Position numbers and translations under genes: made by a program. A stretch of DNA of 64,000 nucleotides from Thermodesulfobium sp. 4217-1. Lineage in GTDB: Bacteria > Thermodesulfobiota > Thermodesulfobiia > Thermodesulfobiales > Thermodesulfobiaceae. Shown one piece after another: positions 7,401-15,722 of this stretch. The notes beneath the pieces are model-generated. The model ran no database searches and was not told the DNA's origin. It was given only the letters and a program-made list of their open reading frames with translations. The stretch is from positions 1 through 64,000 of the forward strand of contig NZ_JBAGBW010000007.1 of NCBI RefSeq assembly GCF_039822205.1. The letters are read 5' to 3'. Each line of letters opens with the position of its first letter. Positions within the stretch are counted from its first letter, which is position 1.

Positions 7401-7624
7401 TTTATATTAATTTCTCCTTTCGAAAACTGAAAATAAAAGAGCACTAAATATAATAATATCATAATCAGACTGCCAAATAGCATCTTACTTTCAAAAGCGT
7501 TATAAAAATGTGCCAACATTGCAATGAGATAATTTCAACAGTAAAACAGTGACAAATTTTCAAATAATTACATTAATTCCTCGATAAAGCAATTTATAGC
7601 ATATACTTTTTTGCATATTTGATC

Positions 7625-7630
7625 TATAAT
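7625..7630 (+). promoter_or_regulatory. Candidate -10 box of the tmRNA gene
   Basis: A perfect TATAAT lies 17 bases before the mature tmRNA 5' end. That distance allows a short leader to be removed by RNase P. No convincing -35 hexamer lies at the usual spacing, so the promoter is only tentatively placed. Confidence 0.4.
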
Positions 7631-7646
7631 ATTATCGTAAATGAAC

Positions 7647-8004
7647 GGGGGCGAAAGGTTTCGACATAGAGTTTTATGTAAAAGCTTGCGAGTCGAGGTG
7701 GCGTTGGCCTCGTAAAAAAACGCCAAAAAATTAACTGCCAATAATAACAGTTTAGCTTTAGCAGCTTAGTCTACTCTTCGGAGTAGATGTAACACTTTGT
7801 GTGCTCCCCTTCGACACACAATTTTAGTTTAGAGGGGAAGAAGAGAAGCTTGACCTGGACTTTTCTTCTAATAAACAGGTCTTAGTCTTCAAGAACCGTG
7901 TCCAAGGCGGGTCAAGAGGATGAAATTTAAAACTTTGGACTACACTCGTAGACGGTTTTTGCATTACTTTGTGGACGTGGGTTCGATTCCCACCGCCTCC
8001 ACCA
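7647..8004 (+). ncRNA. ssrA: tmRNA (SsrA, 10Sa RNA)
   Basis: This RNA rescues stalled ribosomes and tags the unfinished protein for proteolysis. The 5' end GGGGGCG pairs with CGCCTCC at 7994-8000 (one G-U pair), followed by an A discriminator and an encoded CCA, forming the tRNA-like acceptor. The T-arm sequence GTTCGATTCCCAC sits just before the 3' acceptor strand. A reading frame at 7722-7769 begins at the likely resume codon GCC and encodes AKKLTANNNSLALAA followed by TAG. The hydrophobic ALAA ending is the usual degradation signal for ClpXP-type proteases, whose genes lie in this window. It is a one-piece, non-permuted tmRNA of about 358 nt. Confidence 0.96.
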
Positions 8005-8067
8005 AATTAGTGAGAATTTTCTCTCTGATAGTTATTTTTCTCATTTGCAAAGCCATAACAATATTAA

Positions 8068-11004
8068 TCATAAAATTAACTTAATTTTGTCTTCAAAATC
8101 GTCAAAATTATCAAACCAATATCTTTTATAATTTTCTCCCACTTTAGCAATATCATTAGTATAAAGAAGTAGTTTAGTAGAAATATTAAATTCGTTATAT
8201 AAAAAAACTTTGTTTTCAAAAATCTTTCTGTACCCATCTACTTTGTGTTGGTAATCAGCAAAATTTGTCCCTTTGGGATCAACAAACAAAATCAGGTATC
8301 GCTTATCTTTTTGCATCCAAAAAATAAAGTCCGGCTTAAAGTTTGCCATTTTATTTTCTTTTGGATTGTAATAAGGAATTGTTACATCATCCAGCGTTTG
8401 ATCAAGTTTTGAAAACATCCACCAGTCAAATTGAACAAATATATTGTTTGGTTTGGCAAGATATTCTTCCAGTTGCTCAATAAATCTTACCTCGCTATCA
8501 ACATTGATAATATGGTTGAGATAATCAATTTTTTCGGTTTCTGAAACTATCATCGGAAGGTAGTAATGGTTAGCCAAATACTTGATCTTTAATCTGTCAC
8601 ACTTAATTTCTGGCTGAAAATCCAATTCTAATTGTTTTATTGCCTTTTTATACTTTTCTTTATCCTTTGTTCTTTCAAACTCTTCATCAATTCCCTTTTC
8701 TTTAGCCACCTTCTGAGGATAATTCTTCACCTTCCCAATTGCTTCCAGTATTTTTTGATATTTTTCGCCATCGCTAAATCTAACATGCTTGAAATGTACA
8801 ATTTCATTTTTTAATTCCTTAAATTTATCAAACTCTTTGCTTTTAACACTGAAATAATCAAAAATTCGACCCAGAATTAACTCTGGCTCAAAGAGAGAGT
8901 TGCTTTCGTTAAAGTCATAGTATCGATTCTTTTTTGCAAAACTTTCTTCTGTTTTCTTTAAGATCTTCGCTTCACAATCATATTTGGCTAAAGCGATTTT
9001 ATCACCTAAAAATCCATAAAACTTCGAGGTTATATCAAAATCTTCGCGGCTGATAGGATATTTTTGCGGGTCTTTTTCTTCGGCAAAAATCCTTTCAGAG
9101 TTTTTGTAAACCGGCACCAAAAGAAGATGTTTTTGCGCTTCGGGATTTAAAATAAACGCTTCGCCCAAACTCTTGTCCTGTTTTTCCGCTTTTAGGGTTG
9201 CAATTATTTCCTTCAAGTTTTCCGCGTTAGTCCCGAAAACAAACAAGCTTTCAATCGGCAAAATCAGATTTTTGGCTTTCTCAAATAATTGCTTGTCTAC
9301 TTCATTTGCATTGTACAAATTTTGGAGTCTTTTTCTTTTGTTTTTCTGCGGTTCTATTCTTACGCCCCTGCCCACTGATTGCAAAACGAATTTTTTAGCA
9401 TCGCTTCCAACTCCGATGTTAACAAATAGAAGTAGATTGGGTCTATTAGAATCCCAGCCCTCGTAAAAAGAGCGGGAGCCCATTAAAATGTTTATATCGG
9501 AATCATCGCTATTGATTCGCCTGAAATAACTTTCGTTCTCAAAACTTTCGTTTATTTCATATCCTTCAAGTTTGTCCTTTAGCCAGCCGGAGATATCGCC
9601 GATTTTAATTAACGCAAACGGCTTTTCGGCTGTCCTAAGTTTAAAAATCAATTCATTTCTGTTGCCTGGAATTTTCAAAACTTCAATACTACCCGGAGTT
9701 TTAGCGTTCAAAGCATATTTCAAAATATCCTCGTAATCCAATTTTGAAGCCAAGTCAGCGTTGATAGTGCACTCCAACTCCTCAAATACAAATTTAGTGT
9801 TGTCGCGAAATTCTTGGACAAGTTCCTCTTTTGCTATTTTAAGTAAATCGGCTCTAATTTCGTTTCTCGCAACTCTTTCCAGTTCCCTGAAAAATAATTC
9901 TAGATCAGCTTCTTCCACATTCACAGAATTAACCAGCGTCAAAAGTAGCGGGCAATGATACAATGAGTTATCAACTTTCCTTATTTCTTCAAAATACTTA
10001 TCGATATAAGTTAATAGCAAAAGAGTTTTTAAAACGATTTTTTGCTTCTCAATTAGGGAAAAATCATCTTTACTTTTAAATGCACTAATATTTGATTGAG
10101 ACACATAAATATGCTTACCATACCCTTCTTCAACGAACCTTGAAAGATTAAAATTAAACGCACAGGTCGCAAAGTCCCTTGGATCGGTAAATGTAGCTGA
10201 AAAATTAAATAAAAATCCGTTCCTTGAGAGGATAGAATATAAGATCTGCCGTTTGCTATCTTCTTTGTCTCCTTTATGAGCTTCGTCCAGAAGAATATAC
10301 CATTTACCGCTATTGTCATAATTTTTGAAATTGACAATTTTTTCCTTATGTTCGTCAGAGATCAAATCAGAACGATAATAGAAAACAGTAATCTCGTTTT
10401 TCCCAAACGGTAAAGCGTTTTCGCGTTTTACACTCTCATAATCTCGCAAACTTTTAAGATTTATCTTCGTTTCAAAGTTAAAATTGTTAAACTCATCAAC
10501 ATGATTTTTAAATTGGTCCAAAAGGTCATCACGGTGCGTTAAAAAGAGAATATCCCGCGTCGGCAATTCTTTTTCGGCAATCAGTTTGCCCAAAAGTTCA
10601 ATCAATTTCACTATAATCAGCGTTTTGCCCGAACCTGTCGCCATCCAGAAACTCATTCTGTTGATAAAGTAGGCATATGATATCTTATTCTTAATTATCG
10701 GATAATCTTCAGGATATTCCAAAAGATATTTTGCAGTTTTACTATCCTGCTTTTTCTTTAAGTCGTAATCAAAATCTTCTTCCAAACCATTAAGCTTGTA
10801 ATGATCAAACAACTCCTTTTTATCAGCATTCCTGTCCTTAAAAAATAAATGCAAGGCTTTTAGGGCGTTTTTTAACGCATTTTGCTGAAAATCAAAGAGC
10901 GCTTTATCTTTTGAAAACCGCACAAAATCAAATCCTTGCCACTTTACCGGCAAGTTTTCAAAAGAAATATCATCTACGATGTTTTGGAGATGTAACTTAC
11001 TCAT
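8068..11004 (-). CDS. res: Type III restriction-modification system, Res (endonuclease/helicase) subunit
   Basis: This 978-residue protein is the cleavage subunit of a type III restriction system. It acts with Mod to translocate or slide on DNA and cut near unmethylated, inversely oriented sites. A DEAD-like helicase core carries Walker A MATGSGKT at 121-128 and DEAH at 240-243, with a later SVGRGVRIEP motif VI. The C-terminus holds a PD-(D/E)xK nuclease signature: Asp892 (FKPDFIFW), then Asp909 and Lys911 (VDPKG). Length and order match intact Res subunits, so it is probably active. It starts at an ATG with a GAGGAAAG site 21 bases after a remnant open frame and is co-oriented with mod. Confidence 0.93.
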   Translation of the reverse strand: MSKLHLQNIVDDISFENLPVKWQGFDFVRFSKDKALFDFQQNALKNALKALHLFFKDRNADKKELFDHYKLNGLEEDFDYDLKKKQDSKTAKYLLEYPEDYPIIKNKISYAYFINRMSFWMATGSGKTLIIVKLIELLGKLIAEKELPTRDILFLTHRDDLLDQFKNHVDEFNNFNFETKINLKSLRDYESVKRENALPFGKNEITVFYYRSDLISDEHKEKIVNFKNYDNSGKWYILLDEAHKGDKEDSKRQILYSILSRNGFLFNFSATFTDPRDFATCAFNFNLSRFVEEGYGKHIYVSQSNISAFKSKDDFSLIEKQKIVLKTLLLLTYIDKYFEEIRKVDNSLYHCPLLLTLVNSVNVEEADLELFFRELERVARNEIRADLLKIAKEELVQEFRDNTKFVFEELECTINADLASKLDYEDILKYALNAKTPGSIEVLKIPGNRNELIFKLRTAEKPFALIKIGDISGWLKDKLEGYEINESFENESYFRRINSDDSDINILMGSRSFYEGWDSNRPNLLLFVNIGVGSDAKKFVLQSVGRGVRIEPQKNKRKRLQNLYNANEVDKQLFEKAKNLILPIESLFVFGTNAENLKEIIATLKAEKQDKSLGEAFILNPEAQKHLLLVPVYKNSERIFAEEKDPQKYPISREDFDITSKFYGFLGDKIALAKYDCEAKILKKTEESFAKKNRYYDFNESNSLFEPELILGRIFDYFSVKSKEFDKFKELKNEIVHFKHVRFSDGEKYQKILEAIGKVKNYPQKVAKEKGIDEEFERTKDKEKYKKAIKQLELDFQPEIKCDRLKIKYLANHYYLPMIVSETEKIDYLNHIINVDSEVRFIEQLEEYLAKPNNIFVQFDWWMFSKLDQTLDDVTIPYYNPKENKMANFKPDFIFWMQKDKRYLILFVDPKGTNFADYQHKVDGYRKIFENKVFLYNEFNISTKLLLYTNDIAKVGENYKRYWFDNFDDFEDKIKLIL

Positions 11005-11024
11005 TGCATTCTTTCCTCATTTGA

Positions 11025-11138
11025 CTACCTTTCGCTTTTTTCTTTGTCGTTACATTCAGTATTTGCAAAAGCACAAATACACTTCAAATACTCATCCCGC
11101 CAAGATGACTTGAATTCAATAGTTTGGGATTCTTCCAT
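11025..11138 (-). pseudogene. 37-codon remnant of an AlbA_2/Schlafen-like gene between mod and res
   Basis: A minus-strand frame starts at an ATG overlapping the mod stop (TGATG) and ends at a TAG at 11025-11027. It reads MEESQTIEFKSSWRDEYLKC and continues ICAFANTE before losing family-like character. The motif 'E-S-x-T-I-E-F-K-x-S-W-x-D-E-Y-L-K-x-I-x-x-F-A-N' matches, from memory of the family, the start of AlbA_2 (Schlafen) domain putative ATP/DNA-binding proteins. Genes of this family, several hundred codons long, are often found between mod and res in type III loci. Here nearly all of the gene after that start seems to have been deleted, leaving res close behind. The stop/start overlap suggests it is still co-translated with mod, possibly as a short peptide. 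Confidence 0.65.
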
Positions 11139-13645
11139 CACTCCCACCAAATTAATGGCTTAATGAGTTTATAATCCAAATTTTTGGTATTGATTTTTGT
11201 TCCGTCTTCAAATTCTACCTTTCCATCGCTGATTTTCTTAATCCATTTTCCGGTACGATTTGATAAAGTTTCAGCAATGTCTATGCTTGTCCCGAGCGGA
11301 GCCGAGGGATTCGGATAGAGTTTTGATAGATCCACTTTGACTTTGTTGTTATCATAATCAATCTCCAAAGCTTTGAGCATTTTTTCGTCTTTCATAAAAA
11401 CATATTCCTGATAAGGCGATGCACTTGGTCTTATAAACAAGTCACCATCTTCGTATTTGCAGTTTGCCAGGGCTTCCTCGTATTGCTCAAGTTCGTAGTA
11501 TTTGAAAAATCCACCACCTTGATATTCTTTTACTTCTTTTGAAATTCCTGATTTATCATAAGCCAAAACCTTTTTCATCCTTGGCAAAATCACGCTGTAA
11601 AAATGCTCTCCCATCTCCACGCCAATCCACTTTCTTTTAAGTTTATGCGCCACTGCGGTGGTTGTGCCAGAGCCAAGGAAGAAGTCAAGGATTAAATCAG
11701 CTTCTCTAAGGGAAGAAGTCCTAATTACTCTTTCAATAACTTTTTCGTTATTTTCAGTAGTAAACCCCCATATTGAAGAGTAACCAACCCAATCGGTCCA
11801 ATTATCAGTTAATTTTTGAGTTTCTGCTTCTTCGGTTTGTGGTTCTCCTTTCTCATTCAACTTAATTTTTCCTTCTTTTTCTAACTCAAATATTGATTCT
11901 TGACTTAATGCCCAATGTCTACCCTCTGGTGGCAATAATTCTTTGCCTAAAATTATTCTTGCTCTCGTAACAAACTTTCCATTCTTCTCTTTTACATTTT
12001 CTTTTGAAAACAATTTTACATATTCATTCGGGATAGTCGACCATCGAATACCGGGTAAATGCATGCCTCTCCATTTTGGTTCTTCTCTTTTCCTTGTTGC
12101 TGGTTCAAAATCATAAATATCTGATTTTGTATAGAAGAATAAAGAATCGTGCGCACTATGATACTTGTTTATTTTTTCGGTTAACTTGGCCGATTTACTC
12201 AAAATGATTTCGTTTTTATAATTATTATCGAATATGTTATCCATTATCGGTCTTACAATCCAGTTTCCATTGTAATCGCATCTTACAAAAATGCTTCCTT
12301 TTTCATTCAGCCATTTTTTGGCAAGGCGTAATCGGTTTTCAAGTAATGTTGCCCAGTTGGCATCTTTGTAATTTGTGCGATATAAAAACTGATCGGAAGA
12401 ATCCAAATTAAACGGTGGATCAATATAAATCGTCTGCACTTTTTCTTTAAATTTCGGCAGAATGGTATTTAATGCCTGATAGTTCTCGCTTTTTATTAGC
12501 CAGCCGTCCAGAGATTTGTCTAAATCATCAAACTGGTCTAAAATCTCAAGTTCTAAATCCTTGAAATACTTTGTATCAATGGGTAAATGCTCGTATTCTT
12601 TTTTAATCTGCTTGCCTTCTAAAGTATCTTCAAATAAATCAATTTTGAATTTTGAATTGTCATTTTGACTTTTGATTTTTGCATTTTGAATTATCCCCAG
12701 CTCTTCCCACTCTTTCACCTGTTCGCCAAAATTCTTATGTTTGATAATCTTTTCAATGATAGCGGGAGTTATTTTGTCCAGCGTAATTACATAATTTGAA
12801 TTTTTAACAAACTTTGGCTTATTCCAGATTTTTACTAACTCGTCTTCAAACTGGGAGATAAAATCAATTATTTTGAAAGCAATGTCTTTGAGGATTTGCA
12901 GTTGATTGACCCTGTCCGCGCCCCACTCTTTCGCCCCCTCCCAGAAATACTGATAACTCCAAAGCTTAAATTGCTCTTGTAAAAATGCTTTGGCATTTTT
13001 GTTAATGAAGAAATCAACCTCGCTTTGTTTTTCAAAAACTCTAAAAGCGCGTTCCAATTGTTCTTCCGTAATGCTCAAGCCTTTTCTCTTTATGGCTTTT
13101 AATATCTCGTCTTGTTTTGTTTTTGTGCCCCTCTCGGAGTATTGAACGTCAAAGACAATTGTTCTGTCTTCTTTAACTTTATCTAATTCAAAAATCAACG
13201 AGCGTTTTTCATTGGCTTTTTTATGCTCTAAACTTGAAACATCAAAATAAAATTTAAAACCATCGGATTCTATCTCTAAACTTCTGAAAATACGGTCGGT
13301 CTTTACATAGTAGAGCATCTGCGTTTTCCAAAAGAGGATGACATCTTTGTTATCAGTGTAAACCTTTTCGTAGATGTTGTTATGAAATGGCGTTGAGTTG
13401 AAATAGATTGAGCCACTTTCTGTAAAATAGCGGCTGAAAAAGGAGTAGAGCTTATCAAAAAGTTCATTCTTGAATGAGGAATATCTTTCTAATGCTTTTT
13501 CTATATCTTCTTTCAGTAATTGTTCGATTTTTCTGTAGTAATTTGATTTTATGCTCATCAAATTAACAAAACCGCCAGTGCCTTCAATCCTGGCACCGAT
13601 AAAAACATCCTGTAAAGCCCTGTAAAATTTCTCTTCTTTAGTCAT
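11138..13645 (-). CDS. mod: Type III restriction-modification system, Mod (DNA adenine methyltransferase) subunit
   Basis: The 835-residue protein methylates adenine in a short asymmetric recognition site and supplies sequence specificity to the Mod-Res complex. The catalytic motif IV is DPPFN at 409-413, followed far downstream by the AdoMet-binding FFLGSGTTTAVAHKL motif I near residue 665. That order (IV before I) is the beta class typical of type III Mod proteins. The central region between them holds the target recognition domain. The N-terminal 350 residues form a long extension, partly helical. The frame is intact with no visible repeat tract for phase variation. It is the first gene of the minus-strand mod-stub-res run. 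Confidence 0.93.
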   Translation of the reverse strand: MTKEEKFYRALQDVFIGARIEGTGGFVNLMSIKSNYYRKIEQLLKEDIEKALERYSSFKNELFDKLYSFFSRYFTESGSIYFNSTPFHNNIYEKVYTDNKDVILFWKTQMLYYVKTDRIFRSLEIESDGFKFYFDVSSLEHKKANEKRSLIFELDKVKEDRTIVFDVQYSERGTKTKQDEILKAIKRKGLSITEEQLERAFRVFEKQSEVDFFINKNAKAFLQEQFKLWSYQYFWEGAKEWGADRVNQLQILKDIAFKIIDFISQFEDELVKIWNKPKFVKNSNYVITLDKITPAIIEKIIKHKNFGEQVKEWEELGIIQNAKIKSQNDNSKFKIDLFEDTLEGKQIKKEYEHLPIDTKYFKDLELEILDQFDDLDKSLDGWLIKSENYQALNTILPKFKEKVQTIYIDPPFNLDSSDQFLYRTNYKDANWATLLENRLRLAKKWLNEKGSIFVRCDYNGNWIVRPIMDNIFDNNYKNEIILSKSAKLTEKINKYHSAHDSLFFYTKSDIYDFEPATRKREEPKWRGMHLPGIRWSTIPNEYVKLFSKENVKEKNGKFVTRARIILGKELLPPEGRHWALSQESIFELEKEGKIKLNEKGEPQTEEAETQKLTDNWTDWVGYSSIWGFTTENNEKVIERVIRTSSLREADLILDFFLGSGTTTAVAHKLKRKWIGVEMGEHFYSVILPRMKKVLAYDKSGISKEVKEYQGGGFFKYYELEQYEEALANCKYEDGDLFIRPSASPYQEYVFMKDEKMLKALEIDYDNNKVKVDLSKLYPNPSAPLGTSIDIAETLSNRTGKWIKKISDGKVEFEDGTKINTKNLDYKLIKPLIWWE

Positions 13646-13823
13646 AATACCACCTTAGTTATTACAAATCCTTTTATTTTAATATATAAGTTCACCAAAA
13701 CCCACCCAAAAAAATTTAAGAATAAAATTAGTTTAACTTTCATTAAAGTAATAAGGATAATATCATTTTATTCCAATCAAATCAAGGAGCTAATAAGTTT
13801 ATTTGTTGACAAAATCAGTGTCC

Positions 13824-13843
13824 GTTAACACACGCTAACACAA
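13824..13843 (+). repeat. Pair of direct 10-bp repeats upstream of a promoter
   Basis: GTTAACACAC at 13824-13833 is followed immediately by GCTAACACAA at 13834-13843, matching at eight of ten positions. The two copies are one helical turn apart and end six bases before a TTGACA box. This is the layout expected of an activator or repressor binding site for the downstream PAS/GGDEF gene, but no regulator is known. Confidence 0.35.
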
Positions 13844-13848
13844 TGTGC

Positions 13849-13877
13849 TTGACAAAAATAAAAAAAATATTTAATCT
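13849..13877 (+). promoter_or_regulatory. Candidate sigma-70 promoter of the PAS/GGDEF gene
   Basis: TTGACA at 13849-13854 and TAATCT at 13872-13877 are separated by 17 bases. The -35 box is perfect and the -10 box is partial. It lies about 80 bases before the chosen start codon of the PAS/GGDEF gene. Confidence 0.45.
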
Positions 13878-13955
13878 AAGTCCAATTTGTTTAATAAGAT
13901 TATATGTAAGATTTTGAAGCTTTTATTTCATTTTTTTTATATTAGTAAGGAGAAA

Positions 13956-15722
13956 ATGCAAGAAAATAATAATATACCTTTAGAAAATAAATTTGATACT
14001 CTTAAAAATATAATTGATAACTTAGACATACCCATTTTACTTATAGATAAAAATCATAAAATTATTTTGCAAAATAAGAGCGCTTTTGATTTATTTGGTT
14101 CAAAAATAGGCGGACATTGCTGGTATGAATTATGGAATGCTAACTTCCTTCCTAAAGTTCAAAGGGAGTTTTTTGAAGAAGGGAAAGTTTTACCAACCAT
14201 GCAATGCTACTTTTGCCTATCCAATATAGAACTTAATTCAAAAAAATATTTGCTTAAAGAATTATATTTTAAGGATGAATACTGGCAATTGAACTGGATA
14301 TCATTAGACAAAAACAATATGTACTTGATTTATCTAATAAACTTAACTCACTCCAAAGAAAAAGAGAAAGGGCTAAAAGAAGAAAAAAATTTTTTAAGAG
14401 AAGTCATAGATCTTGTGCCAGATATGGTATGGCTAAAAGATTCTCAAAAAAGATATCTACTCGCAAATAAAGCAATATGTAATAAACTCTTACATGCAAA
14501 AAATACAAACGAGCCTGTAGGCAAAACTGACCTGTATTTTGCCCAAAGAATAAGAGCCCAAAAACCAGATGATCCAAACTTTCATACCTTTGGAGAATTG
14601 TGTATGGACTCTGATTCAGTAGTACTTGCTACTAAAAAGCGAGGTAGATTCGAAGAATACGGAAACGTAGCAGGAAAGTATCTACACCTTGATGTTATAA
14701 AAGTTCCAAGAAAAAACGAAAAAGGAGAAATAACTGCAATACTTGGAGCAGCAAGGGATGTAACAGAACAAAAGATAGCAGAAAAACAATTAAAAGAGGC
14801 CCAAGAAAGCTTAAAGCACTCACTTGCCTATTATAAAATTCTATTTGAAAAAAATGCGGCAGGTATGTTAATTATAGATAAAAACTTTACTATAATTGAT
14901 GCTAATCCAACTATTTGCAAAATGCTTCTATATACCAAAGAAGAACTTATAAACAAAAACATAAACCTTATCCATAAAGATGACAAATCAATTGAAAAGT
15001 GTAGGAAACTTATCAAGAAACTCTTTAGAAAACCGAACGAAGAAATAACTATAGAACAAAATTTTAAAAGGAAAGATGGTTCAACTATTTGGATCGAGGC
15101 TACAAGTTCCTTGATCGAACTTCCAAATAATGAAAGGGCAATTATCTGGAGTGCAATAGATACTACAAACCTATATTTACTAAAAGAAAAACTTTATTTC
15201 CAGGCACTTCACGATAATCTTACAAAACTACCAAATAGACGTTATTTAAGTTTAGAACTTGCAAAGGCAATAGAACGTGTCAAAAGGCATGATCATATCC
15301 TGGCAGTTTGCATGATAGATCTGGACGATTTTAAGCCCATAAACGATACTTATGGTCACAATATAGGCGATATAGTTTTAAAAACTATAGCTCAGCGTTT
15401 AACAAACAGACTAAGAAGGGTTGATTTTGTCGCCAGACTGGGTGGTGATGAGTTTGTAATTCTATTAGAATCTATTAAAAATCCAAAGCATTTAGAAAGG
15501 ATTTTTACAAAAATTGATGAAGCTATTAGCTCGCCTATTAAGATGACAGAAAATATTACTGCCAAGGTTGGTGCCAGTATTGGGGTATATCTATATCAAA
15601 AGGATGATTCTGCTACTCCCGATGATATCTTGAGATTTATTGATATAGCAATGTATGAAAGCAAAAAACAAAAGGGAAACAGAGAACATTTTTGGAAAAT
15701 TTATTCAAATAAAAGCTTTTAA
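13956..15722 (+). CDS. PAS-PAS-PAS-GGDEF diguanylate cyclase with Cys-containing PAS-like domain
   Basis: The 588-residue product starts at the ATG at 13956 because a strong AAGGAG site lies just before it; an upstream in-frame start at 13887 has no such site. Domains in order are a PAS-like domain (about 15-120) with Cys55 in HCWYELW and Cys84/Cys87 in CYFC, a second PAS (about 140-265), a third PAS (about 285-410), and GGDEF (about 420-585). The cyclase carries an intact GGDEF signature preceded by an RRVD inhibitory site. No membrane segment remains with this start, so it is a soluble c-di-GMP synthase sensing an internal signal, perhaps redox or metal through the cysteines. The same Cys domain recurs at 43710-45374. 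Confidence 0.88.
   Translation: MQENNNIPLENKFDTLKNIIDNLDIPILLIDKNHKIILQNKSAFDLFGSKIGGHCWYELWNANFLPKVQREFFEEGKVLPTMQCYFCLSNIELNSKKYLLKELYFKDEYWQLNWISLDKNNMYLIYLINLTHSKEKEKGLKEEKNFLREVIDLVPDMVWLKDSQKRYLLANKAICNKLLHAKNTNEPVGKTDLYFAQRIRAQKPDDPNFHTFGELCMDSDSVVLATKKRGRFEEYGNVAGKYLHLDVIKVPRKNEKGEITAILGAARDVTEQKIAEKQLKEAQESLKHSLAYYKILFEKNAAGMLIIDKNFTIIDANPTICKMLLYTKEELINKNINLIHKDDKSIEKCRKLIKKLFRKPNEEITIEQNFKRKDGSTIWIEATSSLIELPNNERAIIWSAIDTTNLYLLKEKLYFQALHDNLTKLPNRRYLSLELAKAIERVKRHDHILAVCMIDLDDFKPINDTYGHNIGDIVLKTIAQRLTNRLRRVDFVARLGGDEFVILLESIKNPKHLERIFTKIDEAISSPIKMTENITAKVGASIGVYLYQKDDSATPDDILRFIDIAMYESKKQKGNREHFWKIYSNKSF

Follow-up and report, generated by a model that had tools for sequence, protein, structure and literature searches.

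The 37-codon open frame that lies between the mod and res genes of a type III restriction–modification locus in Thermodesulfobium sp. 4217-1 is probably the scar of an AlbA_2 gene. The locus would once have had the order mod – AlbA_2/HATPase_c_4 gene – res, as is still found in two related loci, L044 and L111, and we assign this reading a probability of about 0.87. All of the AlbA_2 gene but its first 28 codons would have been lost, either by deletion or by the joining-on of a res allele together with a tail of other DNA. The locus lies in a window of 64,000 nucleotides, the whole stretch of DNA that was analysed, and its features are collected in Table 1.

Table 1. Features of the mod–res locus, in window coordinates
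Feature	Position	Strand	Basis or remark
res, type III restriction subunit, 978 aa, intact	8068–11004	−	Pfam ResIII, PADLOC REase_III
51-nt filler, from the break to the res start	11005–11055	−	Not homologous to AlbA_2 or res
37-codon open frame	11025–11138	−	Remnant, then about 9 codons of unrelated sequence; ends in TAG
SLFN_AlbA_2 gene remnant, first 28 codons, 5′ start kept	11056–11138	−	PF04326 match; identity to L044 and L111
mod, type III DNA methyltransferase, 835 aa, intact	11138–13645	−	PADLOC and Pfam
Diverged mod block between two congeners, probable target-recognition domain	11700–12300	−	51–66% DNA identity, against 89–100% on either side

The minus strand from 11138 to 11025 translates as MEESQTIEFKSSWRDEYLKCICAFANTECNDKEKSER*, a peptide of 37 residues, and its ATG uses the A of the mod stop, giving the overlap TGATG. 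The earlier note had described the mod–res gap in just this way and had taken the opening of the frame for the start of an AlbA_2 protein; both descriptions hold. An HMM search of the peptide, which that note had proposed, finds SLFN_AlbA_2 (Pfam PF04326) with an E-value of 4.2e-5 and 24.5 bits over profile positions 1–31 of 118, and the counterpart in L044 is 81% identical over residues 2–28. The score lies 0.8 bits below the curated cut-off of 25.3 bits. A complete SLFN_AlbA_2 domain with its catalytic acidic residues is absent from the frame, profile positions 32–118 being missing, and residues from about 29 to 37 have no AlbA_2 match. By these sequence measures the frame is a remnant of the family and not a member of it and, because it holds no complete domain, is not expected to act. 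It is the sole AlbA_2 match at E ≤ 0.001 in its own genome, where it also stays under the cut-off.

Full-length counterparts occupy the same position in related loci. The mod–res gap of L044 (1470 nt) holds a 438-aa gene, with SLFN_AlbA_2 at 69.3 bits and HATPase_c_4 at 76.6 bits; that of L111 (1434 nt) holds a 436-aa gene, at 72.0 and 78.6 bits, and both pass the PF04326 cut-off. The mod and res of L044 are 74% and 80% identical to those of the window, and the DNA of the remnant matches 70 of 77 nt in L044 and 64 of 77 in L111. Homology between the window and L044 runs across the end of mod into the AlbA_2 gene (169 of 190 alignment columns, 89%), ends at 11056, and restarts at 10986, which is codon 7 of res; an alignment with related loci, as the earlier note had suggested, thus places the ends of the loss. 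Since no AlbA_2 residue is kept past about residue 28, we infer the lost body from the relatives. Two observations had been foreseen as counting against such a loss: a peptide unlike AlbA_2, and an identical short frame in related genomes that have no longer version. The peptide matches PF04326 and the L044 and L111 proteins; an identical short frame does occur, in the congener G003, but longer versions exist elsewhere. Among viral contigs there were no exact matches to the 25-nt junction of the scar and no confirmed relative of the full AlbA_2 gene, and the best relatives of that gene on plasmids are 41–50% identical.

Might the frame be a chance open frame that merely resembles AlbA_2? Its Pfam score under the cut-off leans that way, but the identity to the L044 gene, over 27 residues and in DNA and at the same place, speaks against it. 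So does a control with all 303 short ORFs (30–60 aa) of the window, among which the frame is the best by ten orders of magnitude when compared with full-length AlbA_2 proteins (E 5e-14 to 2e-10; runner-up 0.014). The odds of a chance resemblance are negligible, and the alignment with L044 rules it out.

A simple deletion leaves the 51-nt filler unexplained. Since the filler derives from neither AlbA_2 nor res, the event may have been a replacement instead of a simple loss of DNA. The earlier proposal that the body of the gene was deleted stands as to the loss, with the break placed and full versions in L044 and L111, and plain deletion is one of two possible routes to it. In a replacement, a res allele preceded by the 3′ end of some other cargo would have been fused into the AlbA_2 gene, so that 28 codons of the one and 51 nt of the other survive. 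The foreign filler fits such an event, as do one-sided joins in the related loci L062, L082, L083, L097, and L100, and the identities of 97% for res but 80% for mod between the window and G003, which indicate that the parts move separately. On the other hand, peptides of the filler match none of the cargo C-termini compared (P 0.77–0.96); the closest locus with a full AlbA_2 gene is 80% identical in res, and the ancestral 3′ end could itself be the filler. By blastn, the filler gives short chance matches only to L044, L111, and the other collected loci. A replacement is thus a serious possibility that falls a little short of an even chance.

A perfect 7-bp inverted repeat (GTATTTG/CAAATAC, window positions 11059–11080) ends 3 nt ahead of the break, and a second 7-bp pair (ATGTAAC/GTTACAT) spans the filler. 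Such repeats near the break may have promoted a deletion.

Three other genomes of the genus were compared (G001, G002, and G003). G003 has the same locus with a 37-codon frame identical in DNA, and some 700 bp surrounding the frame are identical as well. The block from 7600 to 15700 shows mostly 85–100% DNA identity to L032, while its flanks show 70–83% on the left and about 85% over a longer alignment on the right (blastn); the higher identity of the block shows that it was exchanged between two species not long ago, apart from the diverged block within mod. This latter is a swapped piece and probably a target-recognition domain. In G001, the same site, recognised by its flanking genes, holds a HEPN-domain remnant (E 1.7e-13) followed by a res that is truncated to 181 aa and 77% identical to the res of the window; mod is absent. 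Within one genus, therefore, one and the same res has been preceded by different cargo at a single chromosomal site. G002 yielded no match to mod and no long match to the flank.

The unchanged frame in G003 could have been kept for some use. One such use would be that of a coupling or leader peptide: ribosomes starting at the mod stop would translate it and so be ferried to the start of res. The TGATG overlap is kept, the frame is identical in two species, and AGGAAAG, a possible ribosome site for res as read from the sequence, stands inside the filler directly ahead of the res ATG. Yet mod and res adjoin, with no frame in between, in 35 of 80 related loci, and the RNA fold at the junction region is not unusual (z 0.77). 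The identity with G003, moreover, tells little about selection, because it reaches far past the frame and points to recent exchange. A coupling role is accordingly improbable, and the scar of an AlbA_2 gene remains the preferred reading.

The frames of the host genes themselves are intact. mod matches the PADLOC profile MTase_III (PDLC03638) with 921 bits over residues 2–834 and is also matched by Pfam N6_N4_Mtase; res matches Pfam ResIII (E 3.5e-18) and PADLOC REase_III (78.5 bits). The locus thus holds both the Mod and the Res subunit of a type III system, each in an open frame. The pair presumably works without the AlbA_2 remnant, as it would in the many related loci where mod adjoins res.

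What may occupy the gap between mod and res was surveyed in a collection of genomes scanned by res alignment, which gave 188 relatives, the best 80 of which were kept (L042–L121). Cargo or a cargo remnant lies between mod and res in 41 of these best 80. None is present in 35, including L099 (183 nt) and L116 (145 nt), which have no recognised gene there; the remaining four are unclassed, L068, L076, and L102 lying at contig ends and L121 having 621 nt with no recognised gene. In L049, L056, L069, L092, and L105, mod lies past the contig end and only the gene preceding res is visible; L057 and L058 are near copies. AlbA_2-family genes or remnants account for 13 of the 80 res-selected loci, which makes it fair to say, as the earlier note did, that such genes are common between mod and res. 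Seven are of the type of the remnant (L044, L069, L100, L104, L105, L108, and L111), and these are whole only in L044 and L111: the gene is frameshifted in L104, reduced to a start with stops in L108, and cut by contig ends in L069, L100, and L105. Other AlbA_2 cargo is found in six loci (L057, L058, L082, L083, L087, and L097).

The remaining cargo is diverse: RhuM (eight loci; PDC-S23 by PADLOC for one tested), BRO-N (seven; PDC-S13 for one tested), ImmA/IrrE-like proteins with DUF4411/PIN, or a remnant of these (six, with the ImmA of L043 broken and cut to 120 aa), MNT with HEPN (five), a Ppl-like PHP-ATPase, here Ppl (five), DUF6119 (L051, L053, and L061), and radical-SAM/TcmP-like proteins (two). 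Single loci carry a PDC-M23 pair (L084), a Fic protein (L062), DUF3800 (L075), and a 248-aa protein to which no family was assigned (L042). The slot thus embeds more than ten kinds of cargo in the 41 loci, several of them scored as defence by PADLOC. The three DUF6119 proteins are about 500 aa long and overlap the start of res by 8 nt; the one tested matched no PADLOC family. Outside the 80, L034 carries AAA_13 cargo (PDC-S06).

Several loci show further arrangements. In an Aminicenantes MAG, a short Argonaute (pAgo_II, 652 bits) and a SIR2 protein (Aga_SIR2, 421 bits) are nested between mod and res (L052:5955-8916). Outside the 80, a CD-NTase and Cap15 (CBASS) lie between mod and res on the Rhodothermus marinus plasmid pRHOM17201 (L041:10717-12170), and on the Athalassotoga plasmid pATS2 the slot is empty and an IS256 transposase interrupts res (L040:10469-14753). 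In two more loci outside the 80 (L037:13037-14081 and L038:7109-7896), mod has collapsed to its ends or tail and the adjoining MNT/HEPN pair is kept; here cargo has outlived its restriction host. Two loci can share a genome bin: in G060 the slot of L048 is empty and that of L062 contains Fic and RhuM, and L049/L054 and L081/L105 likewise share bins, to judge from their record titles.

Turnover of cargo was compared with descent on a tree of res (86 rows, short search, without bootstrap, the placement of the long rows L033 and L034 being unsure). The 81 labelled tips, in which the window is merged with its congener and L057 with L058, require at least 43 changes of cargo state, against 43.2 ± 0.9 in 1000 shuffles, and the 40 closest tips require 26, against 24.4 when shuffled. 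Since the observed changes equal the shuffled level, cargo type has no detectable signal on the res tree, and cargo changes without regard to the descent of the host genes. Occupancy of the slot shows weak clustering, with 21 changes against 27.0 when shuffled and values as low in 10 of 1000 shuffles. We therefore take the mod–res gap to be a slot in which defence genes turn over fast, and the window locus to be one snapshot of it.

Slots that hold more than one module offer a view of how cargo may arrive. A search of 91 loci looked for displaced copies of the mod 3′ end (last 50 codons) and of the res 5′ end (first 60 codons). Eight slots hold several modules, with ten inner boundaries by our own judgement of module grouping: one each in L062, L083, L087, L097, L100, and L104, and two each in L082 and L108. 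A stray mod 3′ tail or res 5′ end is present at six of the ten (L062, L082 twice, L083, L100, and L097); the L100 boundary has both a res head and a mod tail, that of L097 a res head, and the copy in L062 is weak (E 0.048, P 0.04). No copy was found at the other four, namely L087, L104, and both boundaries of L108, including that between Ppl and AlbA_2; an IWW-stop likeness ahead of the MNT gene of L108 (P 0.065) was excluded from the count. In 29 of 30 whole genomes bearing these loci, the mod tail motif occurs in 34 copies, against none for the reversed control, and contigs with more than one copy are confined to G060, G061, and G062, the genomes of L062, L082, and L083. The stray copies at six of ten boundaries suggest that new cargo was probably joined beside old.

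The mod-tail copies vary in length from about 27 to 95 nt, as judged by eye, which favours one-sided joining with homology in res over a site-specific recombinase. An integron-like, site-specific cassette system was considered and rejected, since no fixed boundary site was found: the copies differ in length and four of the ten boundaries have none. If the mod 3′ and res 5′ ends served as recombination arms, their synonymous sites might be unusually conserved, but an alignment set of 40 res rows and 37 mod rows (without L058, L068, and L076) gave no sign of this; the share of identical codons is about 61% at the res start, compared with 52–66% elsewhere, and 48–63% at the mod end.

These observations led us to a broader and more tentative proposal, which we consider somewhat less likely to be right than wrong: that the type III mod–res junction is an open cassette slot in which modules are swapped or stacked, each bringing a foreign mod tail or landing in the 5′ end of an old res. 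One end of a module would be inserted by homologous recombination in res and the other by illegitimate joining, and the arriving module would carry part of the 3′ tail of a foreign mod (LDYKLIKPLIWWE plus stop). The modules would include Schlafen RNases, HEPN/MNT, ImmA/PIN, Ppl pairs, CBASS, short Argonaute–SIR2, and BRO and RhuM proteins, and changes in the slot would outpace divergence of the restriction genes. The 37-codon frame would then be the leftover of one such event, or of a deletion.

The function of the lost gene can be approached through its relatives. A profile of seven cargo AlbA_2 proteins matches the solved structures of SLFN5, 8, 11, 12, and 14 (E 1e-6 to 1e-3), its best match being 3lmm, a bacterial protein without assigned function. 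The predicted model of the L044 protein is of middling confidence (pLDDT 78.4) and superposes poorly on the Schlafens (TM 0.16–0.26, E about 1e-4). By its domain composition the full protein is classed as bacterial Schlafen-type, with an AlbA_2 domain, HATPase_c_4, and a C-terminal winged helix. One report describes proteins with SLFN_AlbA_2, HATPase_c_4, and wHTH as “Schlafen-family RNases” that lie within BREX loci and others akin to them, in at least 1017 taxa (PMC12839542). L044 and L111 share with these the domain set and a place inside another defence operon; the host here, unlike theirs, is a type III restriction–modification pair, and the window keeps 28 codons only. By analogy, the full protein would most likely be a second-layer, or backup, RNase effector that acts when restriction fails.

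Payne et al. reportedly catalogued, in 2024, guilt-by-embedding candidates as PDC families, and these include cargo seen here: BRO-N (PDC-S13), RhuM (PDC-S23), AAA_13 (PDC-S06), and the L084 pair (PDC-M23). That preprint may already cover the type III mod–res slot. Type I loci offer a parallel: the accessible parts of the reports on PrrC (PMC12707154), DarTG2 between hsdS and hsdR (PMC12255303), and TgvAB (PMC11411939) describe accessory defence genes placed, as here, between modification and restriction genes, and the hsdS–hsdR site is described as a potential recombination hotspot (PMC12255303). Our host is of type III and not type I, and those parts contain no description of mod-tail copies at cargo boundaries. 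A literature search that left preprints and most subscription journals outside its reach yielded no account of cargo lodged in a type III mod–res gap. The scar is thus that of a known kind of defence-gene embedding, in a type III host for which no description was found.

The frame itself is a fossil, and its value is that of a pointer to a short and easily located junction, from the end of mod to the start of res. Half of the related loci carry a second defence system at this junction, across many bacterial phyla and some archaea. The slot is a hunting ground for undescribed defence genes, such as DUF6119 and the 248-aa protein of L042. The scars that it bears reveal how defence genes become nested in one another.
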